DNA of 64,000 bases from Rhodococcus sp. G-MC3 (GTDB lineage Bacteria > Actinomycetota > Actinomycetes > Mycobacteriales > Mycobacteriaceae): positions 186,001 through 250,000 of the forward strand of contig NZ_JASISW010000004.1 in assembly GCF_030063335.1 (NCBI RefSeq). The letters are read 5' to 3'. The notes beneath the pieces are model-generated. The model searched no databases, was not told the DNA's origin, and saw only the letters and a program-made list of their open reading frames with translations. The position numbers and the translations under genes were made by a program. Positions 850 to 18,159 of the stretch are shown here, piece by piece (within the stretch, counting starts at the first letter, position 1; the number at the start of each line of letters is the position of its first letter).

Positions 850-2331
850 TCACGCCTTCCGAATGAGATCCGATACGCGTTCGGCCAACATGATTGCCGT
901 TGCATGCGGCCCGCGCGAGGGCACCACAGGAAATGCAGACGTGTCAGCGACCACGAGACCATCGATCCCCCGAACTCGGCATCGATCGTCGAGAACCGAA
1001 TCTCCCTCGCCCATCGACGCACTACCGGACAGGTGCAGCGAAGTTCCGAGGTGCATCGACAGTGGATCGACGGTGACGTCGACGGCGCGTGCGTCGCACA
1101 GCGGCGACGAGGCGAACAGTTCCGAGACGATATCGAGTCCGTACCGCAGGGCCGCCCTGTCGGATGCGGACTCGAGGTAGCGGTACCGAACCATCGGCGA
1201 CTCGAGCGGATCGCTCGAACGCAGCACGATCTCACCGCGGCTGTTCGGCCTCATCAGCCCGACGCCGATCATCGGGTCACCGATTGCCAGACCAGAGATC
1301 ATGCGGTCGAAAGGTGCTGCGAAGGGGCGGATTTCGAGATCGCCGGTGTGCAAAACGACCTCGAGGGGAGATGCAGGCAGATGCCCGAACGAACTTCGGT
1401 AGTACACACCGATTTCCGGATGATCACTGAATCCCTGCCCGACATTCGGGTGGTCGAGCACGACCGGCACTCCGGCGTCGTTCAACGCATCGGCGGGTCC
1501 GATGCCCGAGAGCATCAGCAGTTGTGGAGTGCGCACCGCGCCTGCGCACAACACTACCGTTTCTGCCCGGATCCGAGAGACGCCCCCATGACGCAGTACC
1601 TCCACGCCCACAGCACGCATCGAGTCGAAAATTACCGACAGAACGACAGTTTCGGTCATCATGGTCAGGTTGTCACGGTTCAGATTCGGAAGTAGGTATG
1701 CCACTGCAGTATTGATTCGCTTGCCGCCGAACACATTGAGCGGCACGGGACCTACACCGTCGCCGTCCGCGGGATCGTTGAGGTCTGCGACATGTGCGAA
1801 CCCGCATTCCATTGCAGCCGAGAAAAATGCACGACTCACCTCGGCCTGTTCGCTGTCCGGAACACGAGCAACGTCGATTGGCCCGCCTCGCCCATGCCAC
1901 TCCCCCGAGAAATCGTGATCGGTCTCCGCTGCACAGAAATATGGAAGCACGTTCCGATGAGACCAGGAGGCAGGCCAAGCGTCGAAGTCACGCGGTCTCG
2001 CTCGAACGAAATAACCACCGTTGACCGACCCCGAACCGCCGAGAACATGGCCGCGAGAAATAGTGCGCTCGATATTCGTCGTCAACGAAGCAGGGTAGGA
2101 CGCCGTCCACGGACTACCTGGACCAACAGGAAGAACGTGGGCATCGGCGATCTCGGCAGGCCAGTCTCCTAGTCCGGTGAATCCGGGGCCCGACTCGATC
2201 AACAGAACGTTGCAGGACGCATCTTCACTCAGACGAGTTGCAAGCACACACCCCGCCGATCCACCACCGACGACGACGATGTCCGCATGATCGACAGTAG
2301 AACGAGGGACGCCGGGGTACTCGCTCGTCAC
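850..2331 (-). CDS. mftG: Mycofactocin-associated GMC-family oxidoreductase MftG
   Basis: A flavoprotein of 493 residues from GTG at 2331. The start codon overlaps the stop of mftF as GTGA, indicating translational coupling. It has an N-terminal FAD dinucleotide fold (GGGSAG, residues 22-27), the GMC signature [13 protein letters not shown] near residue 100, and a C-terminal HLSGSASMG stretch followed by [16 protein letters not shown], where the catalytic His region of GMC enzymes lies. MftG members are found in mft clusters and are reported to pass electrons from reduced mycofactocin to the respiratory chain. Position directly after mftF supports the assignment. A start further upstream would run deep into mftF and is unlikely. 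Confidence 0.93.
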
Positions 2332-3788
2332 GACTCCATTCGCGGAAGCAGCGCCTTCACACTGCGAGACTCGTACGCCCCGCGCCACAGACCGGCACCG
2401 TACGCGACGTCGTCGACCCTCTTGAAGAAGGCGTAACGAACGGGATCGAGACCGCCCAGTTCGCGATGCTTGTACCAATCCGAAACAGCTTCTGCTACAG
2501 CAACTCCCAAGGCAATTTTTCTGATTCGACTCGACAGCACCACCGCGAGCAGCGTGATGGGCCAATAGTGCCGACACAACGCCGACGCCAATTGCCACAG
2601 ACCGGCGACGAATCCTTCGGCGGCGAGAATTGCGGCAATTCTGGTGGGCTGATCGAGACCGACGAACATCTTACGCAGTCGAGTGATCGTGACTCCCAGA
2701 GTCAGCAGCGCGCCGAGCAAGCCGAACCGCGTGAAGGACGCGGCAAGCAGGCAGGCGACGAGTGTCCATGGCGACATCGAGATGGGCGGCACCATGCCGG
2801 GGTGCCTGGCTTCGAGCGGGCTCGCACCGGTGCCGTAGAAGAGCTTGCGGCCAAACCAACGGCCGAACGTGACCCGATGATCGTGCGCGACGTTCGCCAC
2901 CGGCTCGTAGCGAAGCCGCCACCCAGCTTCCTGCAACCTCCAGCAGAGGTCGACGTCCTCGGCCACGTGCATGGACTCGTCGAATCCGTTGCATTCCTCT
3001 GCAACATGCCTGCGAATGAGCATGGCTGCGCTCGGTACGTAGGACACCGAACTACCGGCTCGAATTGCAGCTTCCTTGCGGCCCAGGTCGAGCGAGGATC
3101 GGGCGTGCTCGTAGCGGGCGAGAGCGTTGCCCTCGGGCTCGAGGGCAACGATTCTCGGTGCCACCAGCGCGACCGCCGGATCTGAGAAGTGACCGAGCAT
3201 CACCTCGAGCCACCCCTTGCGCGGCACGACGTCCGAATCCAGGAAGGCTACAAAATCGGTTGTCACGCTCCGGAGTCCGGTGTTGCGCGCTGCGGCCGGT
3301 CCGCGGGATTTCTCGTGGCGCAGAACAGTGACCCCGCCGACGGCCCACGCCATCGGGGGCGGAGTGATGGGAACGTCGGATCCGTCGTCCACAACGATCA
3401 CCTTCAGCCCGTGCAGTGCGGGCAGGAGGCGTCCGAGTCCTGCCGCATTGTTCTTCAGCGGAACGACGACCGTGACGTCCTGCGGAGACGGTATGGACAT
3501 CGGGCGCGGATTGGCGACACCTGAATCGAGGAGCTTGCGCGCTACGAGTGCAGACTGCGAGTCGGTGACTTCGAGAAATCCGTCGCCGATCATTGCCGCG
3601 GCAGTGGGCGCGAGTTTCAGCATTCTCGTCGGCGATCCGCCGATCAGAACGCGGCCATCGGAGTATTGACGTACCCGCGGATCGACGCGCACCCCGAAGC
3701 CGTCAGGCAATCGACCTTGACCCATCAGGTGATCGTAAGCGGACTGAGGGCGTAAGTGGGATTCGGCAGTAGAAAAACTCTGTAACAT
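2328..3788 (-). CDS. mftF: Mycofactocin glycosyltransferase MftF
   Basis: A 486-residue family 2 glycosyltransferase that adds the beta-1,4-glucose chain to premycofactocin. The N-terminal 100 residues form the MftF-specific region. The GT-A domain follows, with VVDDGSD (132-138), the metal-binding FLDSD (182-186) and a [14 protein letters not shown] motif near residue 270. Hydrophobic segments in the C-terminal third ([20 protein letters not shown]) suggest membrane association. Length fits the family (about 470). It overlaps mftG by four bases and lies 40 bases downstream of mftE, so mftEFG form one transcript. The relatively long N-terminus makes the exact start slightly uncertain. Confidence 0.93.
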
Positions 3789-3828: not shown

Positions 3829-4533
3829 TCACGTCAACATTCCCCGGTTCGACGGTGCCCAACGGCTCATTGCTCCGATGCTACGTGTCGTCATCTCGGC
3901 CAGTATCCGGGCGCCTTCGGACGCGGATGCGCCCCTGGGATCGCCCAGCACACCGTTGCCCGACACCGCCCGTGTGCCTCCCTCACGAAGTCGCGGCAAA
4001 AGCTTCGAGATCGGCTCGGTGTTACCCACCTCGGCGCGGGCCATGTCCACAACCTCGGGCGAAAGATAGAGCAGCAGTGATGTTTCGGTTCGTCCTGCGT
4101 GAGCATCGGCCTCGGGGACGGCGCAGGGCAACCATGCCACGTCGCGGCCCTCGTACCGCAGAAGCGCGGTCGCTGCAGCCATCGTCGGAACGTTACCGCC
4201 GTGGCCGTTGACGAACAGGAGGCGGGCAGCCCACCGGCAGGCCGAGCGTCCGTACTCGACCAACACGGTCTCCAAGGCTGCGGCTCCGAGAGACACAGTG
4301 CCTGGAAACCCTTCGTGTTCGCCGCTCGCCCCGTAGGCGATCGCCGGTGCGACTTCGACTCCGGGAAGGCTGCGTGCGAGAGCCTCCGCGATGCGGGTGT
4401 CGGTGTCCAGAGGTAGATGAGGACCATGCTGCTCGAATGCGCCCACCGGAACGACGACCGTCCGGCCTTCGCCTATCCTGGTCCACCCGTCGATGCCGAG
4501 CAGGCTCGGTTGCACAGAGGCGTCGTCGGTCAT
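3829..4533 (-). CDS. mftE: Mycofactocin precursor peptide peptidase MftE (creatininase fold)
   Basis: A 234-residue creatininase-family metallopeptidase. In the pathway it cleaves MftC-modified MftA to release the C-terminal Val-Tyr derived AHDP. Metal ligands are recognisable: Glu34 and His36 in [15 protein letters not shown], Asp45, and His111 in NGHGGN, as in the family. The start at 4533 has GGAGG only two bases upstream, which is tight; an in-frame GTG at 4578 would add 15 residues. In most mft clusters mftE follows mftD closely, but here the next mft gene upstream begins about 7.9 kb away, so mftE must be driven by its own promoter or a foreign one. Confidence 0.92.
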
Positions 4534-4582
4534 GTCCTCCGATGCTAGCGTCAGGCTTTCATGCCGGTAAGTGAGCACGGCG

Positions 4583-5097: not shown

Positions 5098-6861
5098 TCA
5101 ATCGGAAAGCAACCCGGACTCCGCGAGCAGATCTCCGATCTCCGTCGTGTCCAGCTTCGCCATCAACTTCTTGCGCAGCAGCTGCGGGCCGGGCAGCGTC
5201 AGTTCCTTGCCATCGCGAAGCTTGCTGGTAGCGGTCAATAGTGCGCGAACGTCATAGGTGGAATCGAACACCTCGGGGATACCGCGTTCGATGCCGAGTA
5301 GTCGATACGCAGCCTCCATAGCGGTGCGCACGGAGTACTCGGTGGTGAAGATGCAGTCCCGTGAGGTCTCGGCGAACTGCCCGATGAAGGCGAAGTTCAC
5401 CGCGCCCTCGGGCACGACATCGGGTCGGTCACCGGCCTGGCGCGGCATGAAGAACGAGGTCACATAGGGCATCATCACCGGCACACACTTTGCCGCCTGC
5501 GCTGCGAGTTCGGGGATCTCGCCGACCGGGACGCCCAGATGGTAGAGCCATTCCTGGGTGATCTCCTCGCCTGTGCACTCATGCATGGGCTTGTTCACGT
5601 AGTCGCCGGGTACGTCCACGAACAATGCGTAGACCCACACAACGACCTGGTCCTTGGGTTGCTGTTTGAAATGCGGCTGCCGGTTGACCGTCCAGCTCAT
5701 CAGCCAGCTCGAATCCCTCGCCGTGACAATGCCTCCCGTGACGACTTTCCCGCTGAACGGGTCGCGTTTGCAGACCTTCTCGATGTAGGCCGGGATGCGC
5801 TTGTCCAGCGTGGTGACGGTGGCCGATTCCCACTTCGTCTTGGGGATATGGGCCCCGAACACATCAGGACGCCCGAAGGACAGGTCTTTCGCAGCGATAC
5901 GCCGCCACAGATCCCAGGCGGGTGCAGGTCCCTCGTCCAGCGCTGCAGGAGTGTGCTGATCCCCGTTGACCGAGTTCTCCGTCAAAGAACCGATCGTGGT
6001 GAAGATCAGATCGTTCTCGCGCAACGCAGTTCCCGCTTCGACGCCGCCGCTGACCCAGTGGAGGTGTGTGGCGAGCTTGCGCTGGGAGGTGATCTCGAAG
6101 TCGATGTCGGTGACCTCGGTGTCGAACCGGAAGGTCACTCCCTGATCCAGCAACCAGGTGTACAGCGGGAGGACCAGTGACTCGTACTGGTTGTACTTGG
6201 TGAATTTCAGGGCCGAGAAGTCCGGGAGACCGCCGATGTGATGGATGAAGCGGTGTAGGTAGAGCTTCATTTCGAGGGCGCTGTGCCATTCCTCGAAGGC
6301 GAACATAGTGCGCCAGTAGAGCCAGAAGTTGCTGGCGAGAAAGTCTTTCCCGAAGACCTCGTCGATCCGCTTGTTCTCCATCTCTTCGCGGGTGGAGAGG
6401 AATACCTTGACGATGTCTTTCTGCGCGCGCTCACTGAGGGCGAATCGACCGTCGGTGTGCGCGTCCTGTCCCTGCTTCTGCGTGACGCGCTGCAAGGAAT
6501 AGTTCGGATCGTCCTTGTCGAGCCAGTAGAACTCGTCGAGAACACTCGCCCCTTCGGTTTCGATGGACGGAACGGAACGGAAAAGGTCCCAGAGGCATTC
6601 GAAATGGTCCTCCATTTCGCGTCCACCACGGACCACGAAGCCCTTCTTCGGTTCTGCGATGCCATCCAGTGCACCACCCGGTAGTTCAAGTCGCTCCAGG
6701 ATGGTGATGTTGGCGCCAGGCATCTGCCCATCGCGAATCAGAAAGGCCGCACCGGAAAGCGATGCCAGGCCTGCGCCGACGAACCACGCCGTTTTTTCGT
6801 CTACGCCTGCAGGCTTCCGTGGCCGGGCGAATGCCTCATAGTTGCCGTTGCTGTAGTACAT
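5098..6861 (-). CDS. ohyA: Oleate hydratase (10-linoleic acid hydratase family)
   Basis: A 587-residue FAD protein of the myosin-cross-reactive-antigen family, which hydrates cis-9 double bonds of free fatty acids to 10-hydroxy acids. The N-terminus MYYSNGNYEAFARPRKP is characteristic, followed by the flavin motif GAGLASLSGAAF (residues 30-41) and RGGREMEDHFECLWDLF (about 78-94), which holds the acidic residues of the active site. Length equals that of typical rhodococcal OhyA. It is the second gene of a two-gene operon with the dehydrogenase upstream (30-base gap). A decayed MarR gene follows it and a TetR gene is divergent from the operon. Confidence 0.94.
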   Translation of the reverse strand: MYYSNGNYEAFARPRKPAGVDEKTAWFVGAGLASLSGAAFLIRDGQMPGANITILERLELPGGALDGIAEPKKGFVVRGGREMEDHFECLWDLFRSVPSIETEGASVLDEFYWLDKDDPNYSLQRVTQKQGQDAHTDGRFALSERAQKDIVKVFLSTREEMENKRIDEVFGKDFLASNFWLYWRTMFAFEEWHSALEMKLYLHRFIHHIGGLPDFSALKFTKYNQYESLVLPLYTWLLDQGVTFRFDTEVTDIDFEITSQRKLATHLHWVSGGVEAGTALRENDLIFTTIGSLTENSVNGDQHTPAALDEGPAPAWDLWRRIAAKDLSFGRPDVFGAHIPKTKWESATVTTLDKRIPAYIEKVCKRDPFSGKVVTGGIVTARDSSWLMSWTVNRQPHFKQQPKDQVVVWVYALFVDVPGDYVNKPMHECTGEEITQEWLYHLGVPVGEIPELAAQAAKCVPVMMPYVTSFFMPRQAGDRPDVVPEGAVNFAFIGQFAETSRDCIFTTEYSVRTAMEAAYRLLGIERGIPEVFDSTYDVRALLTATSKLRDGKELTLPGPQLLRKKLMAKLDTTEIGDLLAESGLLSD

Positions 6862-6891
6862 GAATTCTGGTTCCTCTCCTAGGTTTTGGTG

Positions 6892-7758
6892 TCACTCGGC
6901 GTTCGGGTAGCGATAGAAGCCCTCGCCACTCGAGACGCCGAGTTTTCCTGCGTCGAGGTAGTTCTCCTTGATCCAGGAGGCGATGCGTCGATCGCTTTCG
7001 CTGCCATTGACGAGGATGTTGTAGGGCGTAGTGAGTCCGACGACGTCATAGATCTGGAACGGACCGAGGGGGGCGCCGGTGGCGATCCGCCACACACGGT
7101 CGACGTCCTCGGGGTTGGCATAACCGAAGGCGGCGAGTTCTCCGGCCGCATTGAGGAAGGGAACCAGCAGTGAGTTCAGGACGTAGCCGGCCTTCTCCTT
7201 GTGGATAGGAATAGGCACCATGCCGATGGCCGTGGCGAAGTCGACGACGGAATCGAACACAGCGGGGTCGGTGTCGGCGGTGCCCATGACCTCGGCGGTG
7301 TTGAATTTCCAGATCTGGTTGGCGAAGTGCAGCGCTAGGAACTTGTCGGGACGGCCGGTGAAGTCTTTCAATTCACTCGGCAACAGAGTCGATGAATTGG
7401 TTGCGAAAATCGTCTTTGCCGGCGCGACTTCACCCAACCGCTCATAGGTATCCCGCTTGATGTCGAGCACCTCGGGAATTGCTTCGATCACCAGGTCTGC
7501 GCATTCGACCGCGTCGGCGAGATCGGACGAGTAGCTGATGCGTTGGAGGGCGGCGTCCGTCTCGAGGTCGGTGGAACCGGATACCTCGCGGGTGTACGTT
7601 GCAGCAAGTTTTTCGAAGCGTTCCTTTGCCTTGGAGAGGATTTCGTTGTTGATGTCGTAGACGGTGACGTCGAAGCCGCGGTAGGCGGTCTGGAACGCAA
7701 TTTGCGATCCGAGGACTCCGGTCCCCAGGACGGTCACCTTGTCGATCTCGATAGTCAT
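6892..7758 (-). CDS. 3-hydroxyacyl-CoA dehydrogenase-family NAD oxidoreductase
   Basis: A 288-residue two-domain enzyme: Rossmann domain with GTGVLGSQIAF (residues 11-21), then the helical C-terminal domain. The catalytic His lies in LHFANQIWK; true 3-hydroxyacyl-CoA dehydrogenases usually read HFFNPP here, so the substrate pocket differs. It is the first gene of the ohyA operon. In Micrococcus luteus an enzyme of this general family oxidises 10-hydroxystearate to 10-ketostearate, so a role as hydroxy-fatty-acid dehydrogenase acting on the OhyA product is attractive. That is inference from operon context; a conventional beta-oxidation role is the alternative. Confidence 0.88.
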   Translation of the reverse strand: MTIEIDKVTVLGTGVLGSQIAFQTAYRGFDVTVYDINNEILSKAKERFEKLAATYTREVSGSTDLETDAALQRISYSSDLADAVECADLVIEAIPEVLDIKRDTYERLGEVAPAKTIFATNSSTLLPSELKDFTGRPDKFLALHFANQIWKFNTAEVMGTADTDPAVFDSVVDFATAIGMVPIPIHKEKAGYVLNSLLVPFLNAAGELAAFGYANPEDVDRVWRIATGAPLGPFQIYDVVGLTTPYNILVNGSESDRRIASWIKENYLDAGKLGVSSGEGFYRYPNAE

Positions 7759-12451: not shown

Positions 12452-13615
12452 TTACCTCTCGAACTTCGGCGGTATCACCACGTCCGACCGCGTCAGCTGA
12501 TGCACCGACGCACGCCCGAGTCCGAGCACGACGGAATCCAGTCCGCCGCGCAGGATGTCGAGAACGTTCTCCACACCGGCCTGGCCACCGGCCGAGAGGC
12601 CCCACAGGTACGCGCGACCAACCAGAACGGCACGTGCACCGAGCGCGAGAGCCTTGGCCACATCGCTGCCCCGACGAATACCCCCGTCGACGGTGATTTC
12701 GATTCGATCGCCGACAGCATCCGCAATGCGCGGAAGCATACGAATGGAGGCCGGAGTGCCGTCGAGGTTGTTGCCGCCGTGATTGGACACGGAAATCGCG
12801 GTGACTCCCGCGTCTATCGCCCGCTCGGCATCGTCGACGCGCGTGACGCCCTTGAGCATGAACGGTCCACCCCACTGCTCGCGCAGCCACGCGATGTCCT
12901 CCCACGTCGGCAACGGCGTCGACATCCACTCGCGGTACGCACCGAAGAACGTGGGCGCAGTGCCGCCAGGAGGTGCCAGATTTGGCGCCGTCAAGTGGGG
13001 AATCGCCCCGGACTTGGCGAACTGCCACAACCACTTCGGCCGAGTGAGCACCTCCGGCGCGAATCGGACCATCGTGCGCAGATCGACCTTCTCGGGGATC
13101 GCCGGGCTGCCCCAGTCTCGGCCCTCGGAGAACGACCAGTCCATCGTCAGGATGACCCCAACTGCGCCCGCATTCCGGGCACGGCCCAGAAGATGAGACA
13201 TGACTTCACGAGTACCGACCCAGTGGAGCTGAAAGAACGTCTGTCGGTTCGCCGCGACGACGTCTTCGATGGGCTTGCTCGCGAACAACGAGAGCCCCAT
13301 CGAGATACCTCGCGCGGCCGCTGCTCGCGCAACCGCGACCTCACCGTCCGGATGTACTGCCTGCACACCGGTCGGCGAGATCATAGCCGGGAATGAAAGA
13401 TATTGTCCCATCAGCATTGTCGACAGATCACGATCGTCCGACAACCCGGCTACGTGCGGGGCGAACCCCAGTTCATCGAACGCCGCCACGTTGTCTGCGG
13501 CAGTGATACCACGCTCCGAACCCGCCAGCAATGCCTCGTACACGGACTTGGGCAGACGCTTCGCGGCACGCCGCTGCGCTTCGGCAACGGTCTCGAACCA
13601 CCCGTTCTCGCTCAG
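12452..13615 (-). CDS. mftD2: Second MftD-like FMN dehydrogenase, CTG at start position
   Basis: A tandem paralog of mftD. From the codon that aligns with the mftD1 start it is 387 residues and collinear with mftD1 through the visible N-terminus, differing in length mainly by the last four residues. It keeps the FMN/hydroxy-acid oxidase fold, including the active-site block SNHGGNNLDGTPA, DGGIRRGSDV and GRAYLWGL. No ATG, GTG or TTG exists at the expected start. The aligned codon is CTG (13615-13613), overlapping the mftD1 stop as CTGA. The first conventional start (GTG, 13543) would remove 24 conserved residues. The gene could be CTG-initiated by coupling or damaged in its start. MftD normally oxidises AHDP to premycofactocin. 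Confidence 0.85.
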   Translation of the reverse strand: MSENGWFETVAEAQRRAAKRLPKSVYEALLAGSERGITAADNVAAFDELGFAPHVAGLSDDRDLSTMLMGQYLSFPAMISPTGVQAVHPDGEVAVARAAAARGISMGLSLFASKPIEDVVAANRQTFFQLHWVGTREVMSHLLGRARNAGAVGVILTMDWSFSEGRDWGSPAIPEKVDLRTMVRFAPEVLTRPKWLWQFAKSGAIPHLTAPNLAPPGGTAPTFFGAYREWMSTPLPTWEDIAWLREQWGGPFMLKGVTRVDDAERAIDAGVTAISVSNHGGNNLDGTPASIRMLPRIADAVGDRIEITVDGGIRRGSDVAKALALGARAVLVGRAYLWGLSAGGQAGVENVLDILRGGLDSVVLGLGRASVHQLTRSDVVIPPKFER

Positions 13616-14787
13616 AGGCCGAGCTTGCGGTCGAAGCCGGCTGGCATGACGACGTCGGACGGGCCGAGATCATGCACGGACGAATGTCCGAGACCGAGCA
13701 CCGCCGAATCCACCCCGCCGCGCAGAATGTCGAGAACATTCTCGACCCCCGCCTGGCCGTTGGCCGACAGGCCCCACAGGTACGCGCGGCCGATCAGGAC
13801 GGCACGTGCACCGAGCGCAAGAGCCTTGACGACATCGCTGCCACGGCGGATACCACCGTCGAGAGTGATTTCTATCTGATCGCCCACAGCCTCGGCGATC
13901 GCCGGAAGCGCACGAATCGGTGCAGGCGTTCCGTCCAAGTTGTTGCCGCCATGATTGGACACCGAAATTGCCGTGACCCCGGCGTCGACGGCCCGCTTGG
14001 CGTCGTCGACCCGCATGACACCCTTGAGCATGAACGGGCCACCCCACTGCTCGCGCAGCCAGGCGACGTCTTCCCACGTCGGGAGCGCAGTGCCCATCCA
14101 CTCGCCATAGGCACCGAAGAATGTAGGAGCCACCCCGCCCGGTGGGGCCAGGTTCGGGGTGGAAAGATCCGGCAACTTGCCCGACTTGGCGAACTCCCAC
14201 AACCACTTCGGGCGGGCGATGCCCTCAGGGGCGAACTGGGCCATTGCTTTGAGGTCCAGCTTTTCCGGAATCGACGGGCTACCCCAGTCGCGGCCATTGG
14301 AGAAGGACCAGTCCAGCGTCATGATCAGACCGACTGCGCCCGCGGCACGGGCACGCTCCATGCGCTGGAGCAGCACCTCACGCGATCCAACCCAGTACAT
14401 CTGGAAGAAGGTCTGCGGATTGACTGCAGCGACCTCTTCGATGGACTTGCTCGCAAACGAGGACAAACCGACAGGGATACCCCGGGCAGCCGCCGCTCTG
14501 GCCACGGCGACCTCGCCGTCCGGGTGCACGGCCTGCACACCCGTCGGGGAAATCATGACCGGGAACGAGAGTGACTGGCCCATGACCGTTGTCGATAAAT
14601 CTCGCTTGTCCGACAGTCCGGCAACATGGGGGGCGAACCCCAGCTCCCCGAAAGCCGCCGTGTTGTCGCCTGCGGTGATACCTCGCTCCGAGCCCGCGAC
14701 CAGCGCGGCGTACACGGATTTGGGCAGGCGTTTCTTGGCACGCCGCTGCGCTTCGGCAACGGTCTCGAACCACGCACTCTTGGCCAT
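13612..14787 (-). CDS. mftD: Premycofactocin synthase MftD
   Basis: A 391-residue FMN-dependent alpha-hydroxy-acid dehydrogenase family protein. It catalyses the oxidative deamination of AHDP that gives the redox-active alpha-keto amide of premycofactocin. The catalytic His is His279 in SNHGG. FMN-contacting blocks are MISPTGVQAVHPDGE (78-92), DWSFSNGRDWG (159-169) and the C-terminal DGGIRRGSDVVKALALGA. It lies 12 bases downstream of mftC and its stop overlaps the presumed start of mftD2 (CTGA). Length and motif order are canonical, so this is the copy most likely to be functional. Confidence 0.95.
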   Translation of the reverse strand: MAKSAWFETVAEAQRRAKKRLPKSVYAALVAGSERGITAGDNTAAFGELGFAPHVAGLSDKRDLSTTVMGQSLSFPVMISPTGVQAVHPDGEVAVARAAAARGIPVGLSSFASKSIEEVAAVNPQTFFQMYWVGSREVLLQRMERARAAGAVGLIMTLDWSFSNGRDWGSPSIPEKLDLKAMAQFAPEGIARPKWLWEFAKSGKLPDLSTPNLAPPGGVAPTFFGAYGEWMGTALPTWEDVAWLREQWGGPFMLKGVMRVDDAKRAVDAGVTAISVSNHGGNNLDGTPAPIRALPAIAEAVGDQIEITLDGGIRRGSDVVKALALGARAVLIGRAYLWGLSANGQAGVENVLDILRGGVDSAVLGLGHSSVHDLGPSDVVMPAGFDRKLGL

Positions 14788-14799
14788 AACTGGGTGTTC

Positions 14800-16032
14800 C
14801 TATTCCATTCCTGCGAGCGGGTTTTCGTCGCAGATCTTGGCCGGCGGCCGCATCATCAATGTGAGCGGCACCGACTTTCGGGGTGTCTTGCGCTGGCCGG
14901 TACGGGAATGGTCGACGCTGGACTTGGGGATCTCCCCCGCCGCAGCCAACGCCATTTCACCGTTGCCGATGACGCATTCAGGGTCCGGACCGTCCATGGG
15001 TAGGCCGGTGAAGAACTTGGCTGCCATGCAGCCGCCGCGGCACGCGTCGAAGTGCGCGCACTTGGTGCAGGCGCCCGAGGTCTGCGGTGAACGCAATTCC
15101 TGGAAGAGCTCCGATGTCTGCCACACGGATTGGAACCCGCCCATGCCGTCTTTGGCGTCTCGCACGATATTGCCCGCGAGGAACTGCTCATGGATTGCGA
15201 AGGGGCAGGCGTATACGTCGCCGATCGGGTCGATCAGGCACACCACCCGTCCTGCGCCGCACAGGTTCAACCCGGGAAGGGCGTCGCCGAATGCCGATAG
15301 ATGGAAGAACGAGTCTCCGGTGAGAACGCCTTCTCCGTTGGCGACGAGCCAGTTGTACAGCTCGCGCTGTTGACCTGCGGTGGGATGAAGATCGTCCCAC
15401 ACATCAGCGCCGCGGCCCGACGGGCGAAGACGCGTGATGCGCAGTGTCGCACCGAATTTGTCGGCGAGAGCCTTGAAATCGTCGAGCTGCGAGACGTTGT
15501 GACGGGTGACGACGACGGAGATCTTCGCATCCTTGAAGCCTGCCTCCTGCAGGTTCTCGAGTGCACGGCACGCCATATCGAACGAACCGGGGCCGCGGAC
15601 AGCATCGTTGACCTCTGCGGTTGCCCCGTCGATCGAGATCTGCACGTCGACGTAGTCCGACGCCGCAAGGCGAGCAGCGACCTTCTTGTCGATCTTGACG
15701 CCGTTGGTCGAGAACTTGACGCCCACCTGGTGGGCCGTGGCGTAGTCGACGAGCTCCCAGAAGTCCGAGCGCACCGTCGGCTCGCCGCCGCCGATGTTGA
15801 CGTAGAACACCTGCATCTTCTGCAGCTCGTCGATGATCGACTTGCACTGCTCGGTACTGAGTTCACGGGGGTCACGTCGGCCGGAGGACGACAGGCAGTG
15901 CACGCACGAAAGGTTGCAGGCGTAGGTCAACTCCCAGGTCAGACAGATCGGGGCGTCCAGTCCGAGTTCGAACTGATCGACCAGCTTGCCGACCGCGGGT
16001 GGTGGTGCTGGCCTTTCGAGCATGGAGGTCAT
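14800..16032 (-). CDS. mftC: Mycofactocin radical SAM maturase MftC
   Basis: A 410-residue radical SAM/SPASM protein. The SAM cluster motif CxxxCxxC is Cys39, Cys43 and Cys46 in ACNLSCVHC, followed by GGGEPT (about residues 81-86). The SPASM region carries the remaining cysteines in CGAG, YACPF, CTKC, DACRGGC and the terminal CV. MftC decarboxylates the C-terminal Tyr of MftA and then cross-links it to Val. The gene is followed closely by mftD and preceded by mftB with an 82-base gap, which is larger than the other gaps in the cluster. Confidence 0.96.
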   Translation of the reverse strand: MTSMLERPAPPPAVGKLVDQFELGLDAPICLTWELTYACNLSCVHCLSSSGRRDPRELSTEQCKSIIDELQKMQVFYVNIGGGEPTVRSDFWELVDYATAHQVGVKFSTNGVKIDKKVAARLAASDYVDVQISIDGATAEVNDAVRGPGSFDMACRALENLQEAGFKDAKISVVVTRHNVSQLDDFKALADKFGATLRITRLRPSGRGADVWDDLHPTAGQQRELYNWLVANGEGVLTGDSFFHLSAFGDALPGLNLCGAGRVVCLIDPIGDVYACPFAIHEQFLAGNIVRDAKDGMGGFQSVWQTSELFQELRSPQTSGACTKCAHFDACRGGCMAAKFFTGLPMDGPDPECVIGNGEMALAAAGEIPKSSVDHSRTGQRKTPRKSVPLTLMMRPPAKICDENPLAGME

Positions 16033-16114: not shown

Positions 16115-16465
16115 CTATTTTTGGGGGTCGTTGGGGGCGGAGCCCCCGACTGTGATCATCTTCGAGTCGGCCAGCGTGGCCAGGGCTTTCACGTACGGCG
16201 CCATCCCTGCATCGTCGATTCCTGCCGCCGCAATGGCGGAACGCATGTCGGGATGCTCGGGGAAGGACTCGATGATCGCTACTATCGTGCGATTCTTCAG
16301 AAAGGAGAGCTTGCGGGTCCCGAAGTGGTAGAGCAGCGCCCCGAACGACTCGGGACGCAGCGCCACCTGCGGGTGAAGGGCCCATCGTGCATCCAAGTCG
16401 ATGGAATGGGACTTCGCAGGAGCGGAGCCTGCGGAGTGACCCAACACAGATTGCAATGCGGACAT
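16115..16465 (-). CDS. mftB: Mycofactocin precursor-binding chaperone MftB
   Basis: A 116-residue RiPP recognition element protein. The segment ALRPESFGALLYHFGTRKLS (about 35-54) is the family signature. MftB binds MftA and presents it to MftC. The ATG at 16465 is one base downstream of the mftA stop, so the pair is translationally coupled. The C-terminus is slightly longer than in the common roughly 100-residue homologs. Confidence 0.94.
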   Translation of the reverse strand: MSALQSVLGHSAGSAPAKSHSIDLDARWALHPQVALRPESFGALLYHFGTRKLSFLKNRTIVAIIESFPEHPDMRSAIAAAGIDDAGMAPYVKALATLADSKMITVGGSAPNDPQK

Positions 16466-16466
16466 G

Positions 16467-16580
16467 TCAGTAGACGCCGCACATGCCGTCGATGGAAACT
16501 TCTTCCACCAGCGACTCTTCCACGAGATCGGACTCAACCACTGCAGCGTTCACAACTTCGGTCTTCTGGTTCTGGGACAT
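16467..16580 (-). CDS. mftA: Mycofactocin precursor peptide MftA
   Basis: A 37-residue peptide starting MSQNQKTEVV and ending IDGMCGVY, the invariant MftA C-terminus whose last two residues, Val36 and Tyr37, become the cofactor core. The leader is acidic (VEESLVEEVS) and serves MftB recognition. GGAGG at 16588-16592 lies seven bases before the ATG. It heads the mftABCD1D2 transcript and is divergent from mftR. Confidence 0.97.
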   Translation of the reverse strand: MSQNQKTEVVNAAVVESDLVEESLVEEVSIDGMCGVY

Positions 16581-16671: not shown

Positions 16672-17304
16672 ATGACACTACTTGGGGAGAAAAAGTTGGC
16701 CAGCCGCAAGAAACCGTCCAGCCGGGTAGGTCGCCGCCCGTCCACGACGCGGGGGCAGATCAGCGATCTGAGCATCGAACTCTTCGCCAAACAAGGATTC
16801 GACGAGACGAGCGTCGACGAGATCGCCGAGGCGGCCGGCATCGCACGGCGAACTTTCTTCCGATACTTTCCATCGAAGAACGCGGTTCCCTGGGGCGATT
16901 TCGACGAACAGCTCGCCGCGCTGCGCGGCGTGCTCGCCGGTCTGCCGGACGATATTTCGCTGGCAGACGGCATCAGGTCGGCACTGCTGCAGTTCAACAC
17001 TTTTCCCGAGGACGAGAAACCGGTACATCGTCAGCGTATGGCGCTGATCCTGCACAACCCCGCGCTGCAGGGTTATTCGATGCTGATGTACGAGGGTTGG
17101 CGGTATGTCATCGCCGAATATGTGGCAGCCCGAACGGATTCCAACTCGAACGACCATTTTCCTCGAACAGTTGGCTGGATGGTGCTCGGTGTGGCAATGT
17201 CAGCCTACGAGCAGTGGCTGACCGATGAGAGCCTCGACCTTGCGGAGCTGCTGACCGAGGGGACTCGCACTCTCTACGCGGGCCTGGACGTACCCGACCA
17301 CTGA
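16672..17304 (+). CDS. mftR: Mycofactocin system TetR regulator MftR
   Basis: A TetR-family repressor of 210 residues from ATG at 16672. A TTG at 16696 with GGGGAGA just ahead of it would give 202 residues and is an equally good start. The helix-turn-helix covers roughly residues 30-75 (SIELFAKQGFDETSVDEIAE, GIARRTFFRYFPSKNAVPWG), closely matching known MftR proteins. The C-terminal domain has the mycofactocin-type WMVLGVAMSAYEQWL stretch. It is divergent from mftA and followed 24 bases later by mftM. Confidence 0.92.
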   Translation: MTLLGEKKLASRKKPSSRVGRRPSTTRGQISDLSIELFAKQGFDETSVDEIAEAAGIARRTFFRYFPSKNAVPWGDFDEQLAALRGVLAGLPDDISLADGIRSALLQFNTFPEDEKPVHRQRMALILHNPALQGYSMLMYEGWRYVIAEYVAARTDSNSNDHFPRTVGWMVLGVAMSAYEQWLTDESLDLAELLTEGTRTLYAGLDVPDH

Positions 17305-17328: not shown

Positions 17329-18159
17329 ATGACCGAACTGGACGCACTTGCACCCGGCATTGCCGGGCGTTGGATTCACGAGCACATCGTCGTCGAGTTC
17401 GACGAAGGGCTTTCGTCCGGCACGATCGAGCTGAACCGTGCTGCCGGTTCTCTGACTGTCCGCCACGCGCTGAACTCGTCACACCTCGGCGAAGGACTCC
17501 TCCCGCAGATCACCGCCATGAATCTTGGGCAGCGAGAGTTCGAGCTCGTCATTGTCGGCCTCGTTCGTTCGACGGTGCCCGATCCAGTCGAGTCCTGGGC
17601 AACGTACTACCGCAACTCGCTCGACGATCTGCTGTCCGGCGCTGCCGATTTCGCACCCATCCACGAGCGGGCAGAATCTCTCGTCGACGGTTCGGTTCTC
17701 GACCTCGGCTCGTGCTTCGGGTTCTTTCCTTTGAGACTGGCACTGCGCGGCGTGCAGGTCACCGCAACCGACCTCTCCGAGGGCACGATGCGGTTGCTGC
17801 GTACCGTCGCACCACACCTCGGAGTCACCCTCGACGTCATCACGTGTGATGCAGCAGGCATTCCGGTCGCCGACAATTCGGCCGACACCGTCACTGCGCT
17901 GCACCTGCTCGAGCACGTCGACGACGGCGCCTGCATCATCGACGAAGCCGTCAGAATCGCGCGGCGTCGCGTGATCGTCGCCGTGCCGTTCGAAGCCGAA
18001 GCCACCGCGTGCCACGGGCATGTCAGGACGTTCGACGCCGATGCGCTGAGGACACTCGGATCCGGCACCGGACTGCCGTTCGAGGTGGACGAGCATCACG
18101 GCGGCTGGCTGGTACTCGACACTTCCAATGCAGATTCTCTTATCGCGGCAACTAAATGA
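17329..18159 (+). CDS. mftM: Mycofactocin oligosaccharide methyltransferase MftM
   Basis: A 276-residue class I SAM-dependent methyltransferase. Motif I is LDLGSCFGFFPLRLALRG (about residues 124-141), followed by the acidic loop VTATDLSEG and the later LHLLEHVDD. MftM proteins methylate the second glucose of the mycofactocin glycan. To my knowledge M. smegmatis carries mftM away from its mft cluster, beside the MnoSR two-component genes. Here it is next to mftR and also beside such a two-component pair, which supports the call. Its stop overlaps the response regulator stop by eight bases (convergent). Confidence 0.88.
   Translation: MTELDALAPGIAGRWIHEHIVVEFDEGLSSGTIELNRAAGSLTVRHALNSSHLGEGLLPQITAMNLGQREFELVIVGLVRSTVPDPVESWATYYRNSLDDLLSGAADFAPIHERAESLVDGSVLDLGSCFGFFPLRLALRGVQVTATDLSEGTMRLLRTVAPHLGVTLDVITCDAAGIPVADNSADTVTALHLLEHVDDGACIIDEAVRIARRRVIVAVPFEAEATACHGHVRTFDADALRTLGSGTGLPFEVDEHHGGWLVLDTSNADSLIAATK

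Follow-up and report, generated by a model that had tools for sequence, protein, structure and literature searches.

The 64,000-nt stretch of the Rhodococcus sp. G-MC3 genome analysed here (the window, to whose positions all coordinates refer; its genome is labelled G000) carries two adjacent mftD genes on the minus strand: mftD1 (13612..14787; ATG start, 391 aa), the canonical pre-mycofactocin synthase gene, and mftD2 (12452..13615; 387 codons ahead of a TAA stop at 12454-12452), whose first codon is CTG. The catalytic Tyr-to-His change that is fixed in this tandem MftD paralogue outweighs the start-codon question in importance. We lean toward the view that mftD2 is a living paralogue of pre-mycofactocin synthase, widespread in its genus, which would be made by ribosomes just finishing mftD1—by CTG reinitiation here and in a sister gene—and whose altered pocket might serve either a different oxidation or the tuning of MftD1.

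Both proteins score above the cut-off of the MftD model TIGR03966 (470.85 bits): MftD1 reaches 716.7 bits and MftD2 688.7 bits, with the match of MftD2 spanning residues 4-387 and, hence, its full length. Their identity amounts to 79% at the protein level and 76.7% at the DNA level over the part from Trp6 onward. The active site is where they part. In the alignment, Tyr131 is replaced by His in 27/27 D2 proteins, while it is Tyr in all 43 others (D1, single-copy, and outgroup MftD); in the window this is codon 131 of mftD2, CAC at 13223..13225 (minus strand), as obtained by counting from 13615 and reading the sequence. Ser110 is exchanged for Leu and Arg142 for Met or Leu in 27/27 D2 proteins, and Gly228 for Arg in 26 of the 27. 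On the other side, the active-site residues of the flavin mononucleotide (FMN) barrel—Lys255, His279, Asp159, and Arg166—are kept throughout the 27. As the catalytic-dyad Tyr, invariant in the other MftD proteins compared, is His131 in MftD2, the protein is filed here as an MftD-family homologue and not as a proven pre-mycofactocin synthase. Judged by its residues, MftD2 is probably a pocket-altered paralogue acting beside MftD1, and no simple duplicate. An earlier note on this DNA had guessed that a duplicate MftD could broaden or modulate cofactor maturation, and Tyr131His and Ser110Leu now lend substance to this guess; the changed active site itself, the spread of mftD2 through the genus, and its single origin had escaped that note.

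This origin is apparent from a codon-aligned tree of 70 sequences (L099 is missing from its outgroup), in which all 27 D2 rows (25 complete, 2 partial) form one clade with support 100/100; mftD2 has a single origin. D2 tends to have longer terminal branches than D1. The genus sample comprises 37 genomes of Rhodococcoides, a genus of soil-dwelling bacteria, and 35 of these have at least one MftD match—25 with D2 and 10 single copy—with two having none. In G014, D2 is present only as a fragment at a contig end, and the 25 complete tandem loci stem from 24 genomes. G017 bears two complete mftC-D1-D2 loci (L135, L136), and G018 bears one complete locus and another that is apparently broken by contig ends (L137, L138, L156). 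The single-copy genomes G001, G020, G027, G030, and G031 group within D1, though weakly supported, and, therefore, either a loss of D2 or an earlier branching may hold for them; the 4 kb behind the single-copy mftD in eight genomes contained no convincing D2 remnant (best tblastn E value 0.15). Beyond the genus sample, five of the best 80 loci of a public genome scan have two mftD genes in the fetched stretch, all of them Rhodococcoides. In an order-wide set, MftD occurs in 113 of 249 genomes and matches twice in 12, with the two matches side by side only in G000 and G010, both Rhodococcoides. Neither the best 80 scan loci nor the 249 genomes of the order contain a side-by-side pair outside Rhodococcoides; as far as examined, the tandem paralogue is confined to one genus. 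The description of a duplicate MftD as unusual is, hence, not borne out within the genus, where 25/37 genomes have D2. In the other ten two-match genomes, which belong to other genera, the second MftD lies on another contig or distant on the same one, and for G070 it may be an assembly end overlap. The accessible text of Haft 2011 (PMC3023750) describes the MftD family as single copy per genome, and the literature searched, with most subscription papers outside its reach, held no mention of a second MftD in tandem.

Purifying selection acts on mftD2, with the other catalytic residues kept. Between the two D2 genes that begin with CTG and have no other start candidate—those of G000 and of G028, Rhodococcus yunnanensis NBRC 103083—the synonymous divergence dS is 0.90 and the ratio of nonsynonymous to synonymous substitution rates (dN/dS) is 0.096 over 382 codons, and neither gene contains an internal stop. 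Hence, neither frame decay nor lost selection marks mftD2 as a pseudogene, although a very recent loss is compatible with this ratio. The median pairwise dN/dS of D2 (0.116) exceeds that of D1 (0.033; 300 pairs each) about 3.5-fold, as expected for a specialised yet functional copy. Within codons 6-24 of the two CTG genes, 8.5 silent stand against 3.5 replacement changes; in a neutral simulation with an equal number of changes, the absence of a stop together with as few replacements has P = 0.0005.

The junction of the two genes reads CTC TGA GCG. The CTG that we take as the start codon of mftD2 (13613..13615, minus strand) uses the third base of the final mftD1 codon, CTC, as its first base and overlaps the mftD1 stop (TGA, 13614-13612) as a 4-nt CTGA at 13612..13615. 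Upstream of it, the mftD2 frame extends over just 18 codons, up to a TGA at 13672, and these hold no ATG, GTG, TTG, ATT, ATC, or ATA; the next in-frame ATG, GTG, or TTG after it is the GTG of codon 25 (13541..13543, minus strand). MftD1 and MftD2 are collinear from residue 1, with residues 1-5 differing (MAKSA versus LSENG) and residues 6-17 identical. The tandem arrangement and the CTGA overlap had both been described in the earlier note, and both are as it said; to judge the CTG, it had proposed looking in relatives for ATG or GTG at this site. GTG is indeed found at the same 4-nt overlap in 8 of the 25 tandem loci. The remaining D2 genes begin with a separate GTG (8 loci), a separate ATG (4), CTGA plus a GTG just ahead of Trp6 (3; G010, G013, G035), or CTGA alone (G000, G028), and D1 begins with ATG in 25/25. 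G000 and G028 are distinguished by having CTG and no other start candidate. Counted by position, the 4-nt overlap is the sole nearby candidate in ten loci (8 GTG, 2 CTG) and ambiguous in three more, with an ATG or GTG 0-33 nt past the mftD1 stop in the other 12. In 23 of the 25, a D2 start candidate lies at most 17 nt from the mftD1 stop, which falls inside the distance range that the accessible text of PMC10666635 gives as required for coupling. The final D1 codon is GTG in 8/8 GTGA loci versus 1/17 others and, therefore, the wobble base of mftD1 appears chosen for the mftD2 start. A single silent change (CTC to CTG in G000, GTC to GTG in G028) would create GTGA, and CTG persists in both. The two genomes are sisters in the D2 tree (96/88) and in the D1 tree (100/86). 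A protein catalogue lists the window's MftD2 from the CTG (P0001, 387 aa, MSENGW). From these sequences, weak CTG initiation by termination-reinitiation is probably the best reading of the mftD2 start. Of the two options raised earlier—rare CTG initiation or a start-codon lesion—the former is better supported, because the sister D2 has the same CTG-only start, the frame is constrained at the protein level, and 8/25 loci have GTG at the same overlap.

The DNA of codons 6-17 is also identical between mftD1 and mftD2, over 36 nt (13600-13565 and 14772-14737), in spite of a 23% difference between the two genes. G013 (32) and G035 (29) have shorter identical runs at this site. Such runs may reflect local gene conversion or a constraint on silent sites; the length of the 36-nt run is not exceptional by itself, because other genomes (e.g., G026) have runs of 34-61 nt in other parts of the gene.

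Several observations weigh against CTG reinitiation of a functional, pocket-altered MftD2. Geometry produces an overlapping CTG wherever the end of mftD1 reads C TGA and D2 occupies that frame; of the six loci with such a CTG, four (G010, G013, G026, G035) have a later ATG or GTG, and G003, G009, and G032 likewise have in-frame CTG codons close to their D2 starts. Shine-Dalgarno pairing ahead of the CTG is weak (-1.1 kcal/mol here, -3.5 in G028), and according to the accessible text of PMC11497404, CUG makes up 0.024% of bacterial starts and reaches 0.86% of the efficiency of AUG. The catalogued R. yunnanensis MftD2 begins at the GTG of codon 25 (P0034, 367 aa). Also, an mftC tree (L119-L155; bootstrap unsettled) joins G000 not with G028 but at 96/89 with G021, which has a GTG start; a shared CTG ancestor is, hence, backed by the D1 and D2 trees and not by mftC, and recombination inside the operon is possible. 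Codons 18-24 taken by themselves lack significant constraint (P = 0.13), and a conversion tract from mftD1 could mimic constraint in codons 6-17, as these are identical to the mftD1 of the same genome. Lastly, the structure model of MftD2 is poor at residues 163-177 and 281-284 (predicted local distance difference test, pLDDT, under 50), near Arg166 and Asn282.

Three other explanations have to be weighed against these data. That the start was lost by substitution or deletion, leaving the D2 of this lineage a silent relic which is dispensable as long as mftD1 remains, appears decidedly unlikely to us. It would fit a start codon as poor as CTG, the ATG seven nt past the mftD1 stop in G032, compared with which the junction of G000 is 14 nt shorter, and the five single-copy genomes—which, had they lost D2, would indicate that some lineages can do without it. 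A recent loss would agree with the dN/dS as well. However, a second species shows the same CTG-only state, neither of the two genes has an internal stop, a dN/dS of 0.096 over 382 codons was maintained across a dS of about 0.9, and both CTG genes keep the active-site pattern of the clade. We give even less credence to an internal start at GTG 13543, which would yield a protein of 363 aa devoid of residues 1-24. This GTG is the first canonical in-frame start, and the catalogued R. yunnanensis protein begins at the matching codon; the entry for the window protein, on the contrary, begins at the CTG. Starting there would also remove a predicted helix at residues 10-20 and cut a second at 23-31, in a region where conservation reaches 90% or more at 13 of the positions 6-22 across 58 aligned MftD sequences, many from close relatives (L095, which contains a stop, and L112 were left out). 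Codons 6-24 look protein-conserved in the two CTG genes, subject to the reservations on codons 18-24 and on conversion given above, and the GTG is merely the codon of a conserved Val25, which is GTC in G010.

The third explanation, a redundant dose copy whose reaction equals that of MftD1 and which only adds capacity, is rather unlikely. Both proteins lie above the MftD equivalog cut-off, and every locus where the search pattern found an mftA core has the same one, as such a copy would have it. This is countered by the replacement of the invariant catalytic Tyr and the pocket Ser in 27/27 D2 proteins, by the roughly 3.5-fold higher median dN/dS of D2, and by an ATG start in only 4/25 D2 loci versus 25/25 for D1. 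Reinitiation at the CTG to make an altered paralogue is the account favoured here.

Some further candidates were considered and set aside. A sequencing error at the CTG is rejected as unlikely because the sister gene in G028 has the identical codon. Concerning an unusual initiator tRNA, the canonical anticodon arm GGGCTCATAACCC, which we take to be that of the initiator tRNA, occurs twice; with 7 further matches of the pattern and 8 of its reversed control, this shows only that normal arms exist. A frameshift fusion of MftD1 and MftD2 is disfavoured by the lack of a slippery heptamer at the junction as inspected by eye and by the separate starts in many relatives. As to a variant precursor for MftD2, IDGMCGVY was the sole core in 36 of 38 regions searched by a pattern that needed a C-G-x-Tyr end and would miss other precursors; no match came from G014 and G018b, whose regions are truncated at contig ends, and the G000 genome has one precursor-family match. 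Because the core is the same wherever the pattern matched, a variant precursor is an unlikely reason for MftD2.

In the mechanism that we propose, ribosomes ending mftD1 would sometimes restart at the overlapping CTG, which begins with the wobble base of the last mftD1 codon (where that base is G, relatives have GTG), and this reinitiation would yield little MftD2 relative to MftD1. The product would fold into an FMN enzyme with a changed pocket, in which the FMN barrel and its Lys, His, Asp, and Arg are kept, with His for the dyad Tyr and Leu for the neighbouring Ser. Most likely, it would carry out a different oxidation on AHDP, pre-mycofactocin, or a related compound of the mycofactocin pathway. 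AHDP, the known substrate of MftD, bears no alpha-hydroxy acid, which sets it apart from the p-hydroxymandelate oxidase case discussed below. Alternatively, MftD2 might tune MftD1 within a mixed oligomer; overlapping gene pairs are enriched in heteromeric subunits according to the accessible text of PMC10666635. As a bolder, improbable extension, MftD2 might be a naturally evolved enzyme of the FMN alpha-hydroxyacid-oxidase type in which Tyr has become His and the reaction outcome has switched (e.g., to a four-electron or oxygen-inserting oxidation), and which makes a Rhodococcoides-specific mycofactocin derivative; its dose would then be tuned through the third base of the final mftD1 codon, reaching as low as a conserved CUG start allows. 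MftD forms the redox-active group of mycofactocin, and an altered, fixed paralogue points to an unrecognised pathway step, product, or regulatory subunit. The junction also offers a natural series of GTG, CTG, and ATG starts for measuring how far a silent substitution in one gene could determine the start strength of its downstream neighbour.

The minus-strand order is mftA-B-C-D1-D2, which locates mftD2 inside the mft operon. Upstream of mftD1 lie mftC for the radical SAM maturase (14800..16032; TIGR03962), mftB (16115..16465; TIGR03967, its ATG at 16465-16463 taken from sequence reading), and the precursor gene mftA (16467..16580), which ends in ...IDGMCGVY and is the sole precursor-family match in the genome. 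The regulator gene mftR (16672..17304; TIGR03968, start position inferred) and the methyltransferase gene mftM (17329..18159; NF041255) follow on the plus strand. About 8-12 kb beyond mftD2, the minus strand carries mftE for the peptidase (3829..4578; TIGR03964, ~7.9 kb from mftD2), mftF for the glycosyltransferase (2328..3788; TIGR03965), and mftG for the dehydrogenase (850..2598; TIGR03970 over residues 105-579, the listed start being probably too far upstream). The mft genes are split, with oleate hydratase and 3-hydroxyacyl-CoA dehydrogenase genes (5098-7758, minus strand) between mftD2 and mftE; long-chain acyl-CoA is reported, in the title of PMC8728441, as a signal to which MftR responds.

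Among known systems, the junction resembles termination-reinitiation at 4-nt overlaps as covered in the accessible text of PMC6728339 and PMC10666635, with the same stop/start overlap and a tight coupling geometry. It differs in the CTG start of mftD2; "CTG" gave 0 matches in the accessible text of PMC6728339, the one of the two searched for it. For the active site, the closest parallel is p-hydroxymandelate oxidase (Hmo; together with its Y128F mutant, PDB 5zzp, 6a11), where exchanging the corresponding Tyr for Phe converts the enzyme from a two-electron oxidase to a four-electron one resembling a monooxygenase (accessible text of PMC6677016). The mutant has Phe where D2 has His; a comparable shift of chemistry in D2 is a possibility. 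With MftD itself (TIGR03966; Rv0694 type), MftD2 shares the fold family, an above-cut-off score, the position after mftC, the active-site Lys, His, Asp, and Arg, and also Ala28 and Asn282 at the positions of the carboxylate-binding Tyr and Arg of HAO1. It departs from MftD by Tyr131His, Ser110Leu, Arg142Met/Leu, and Gly228Arg, by being encoded in a second tandem gene, and by a mostly weaker start.
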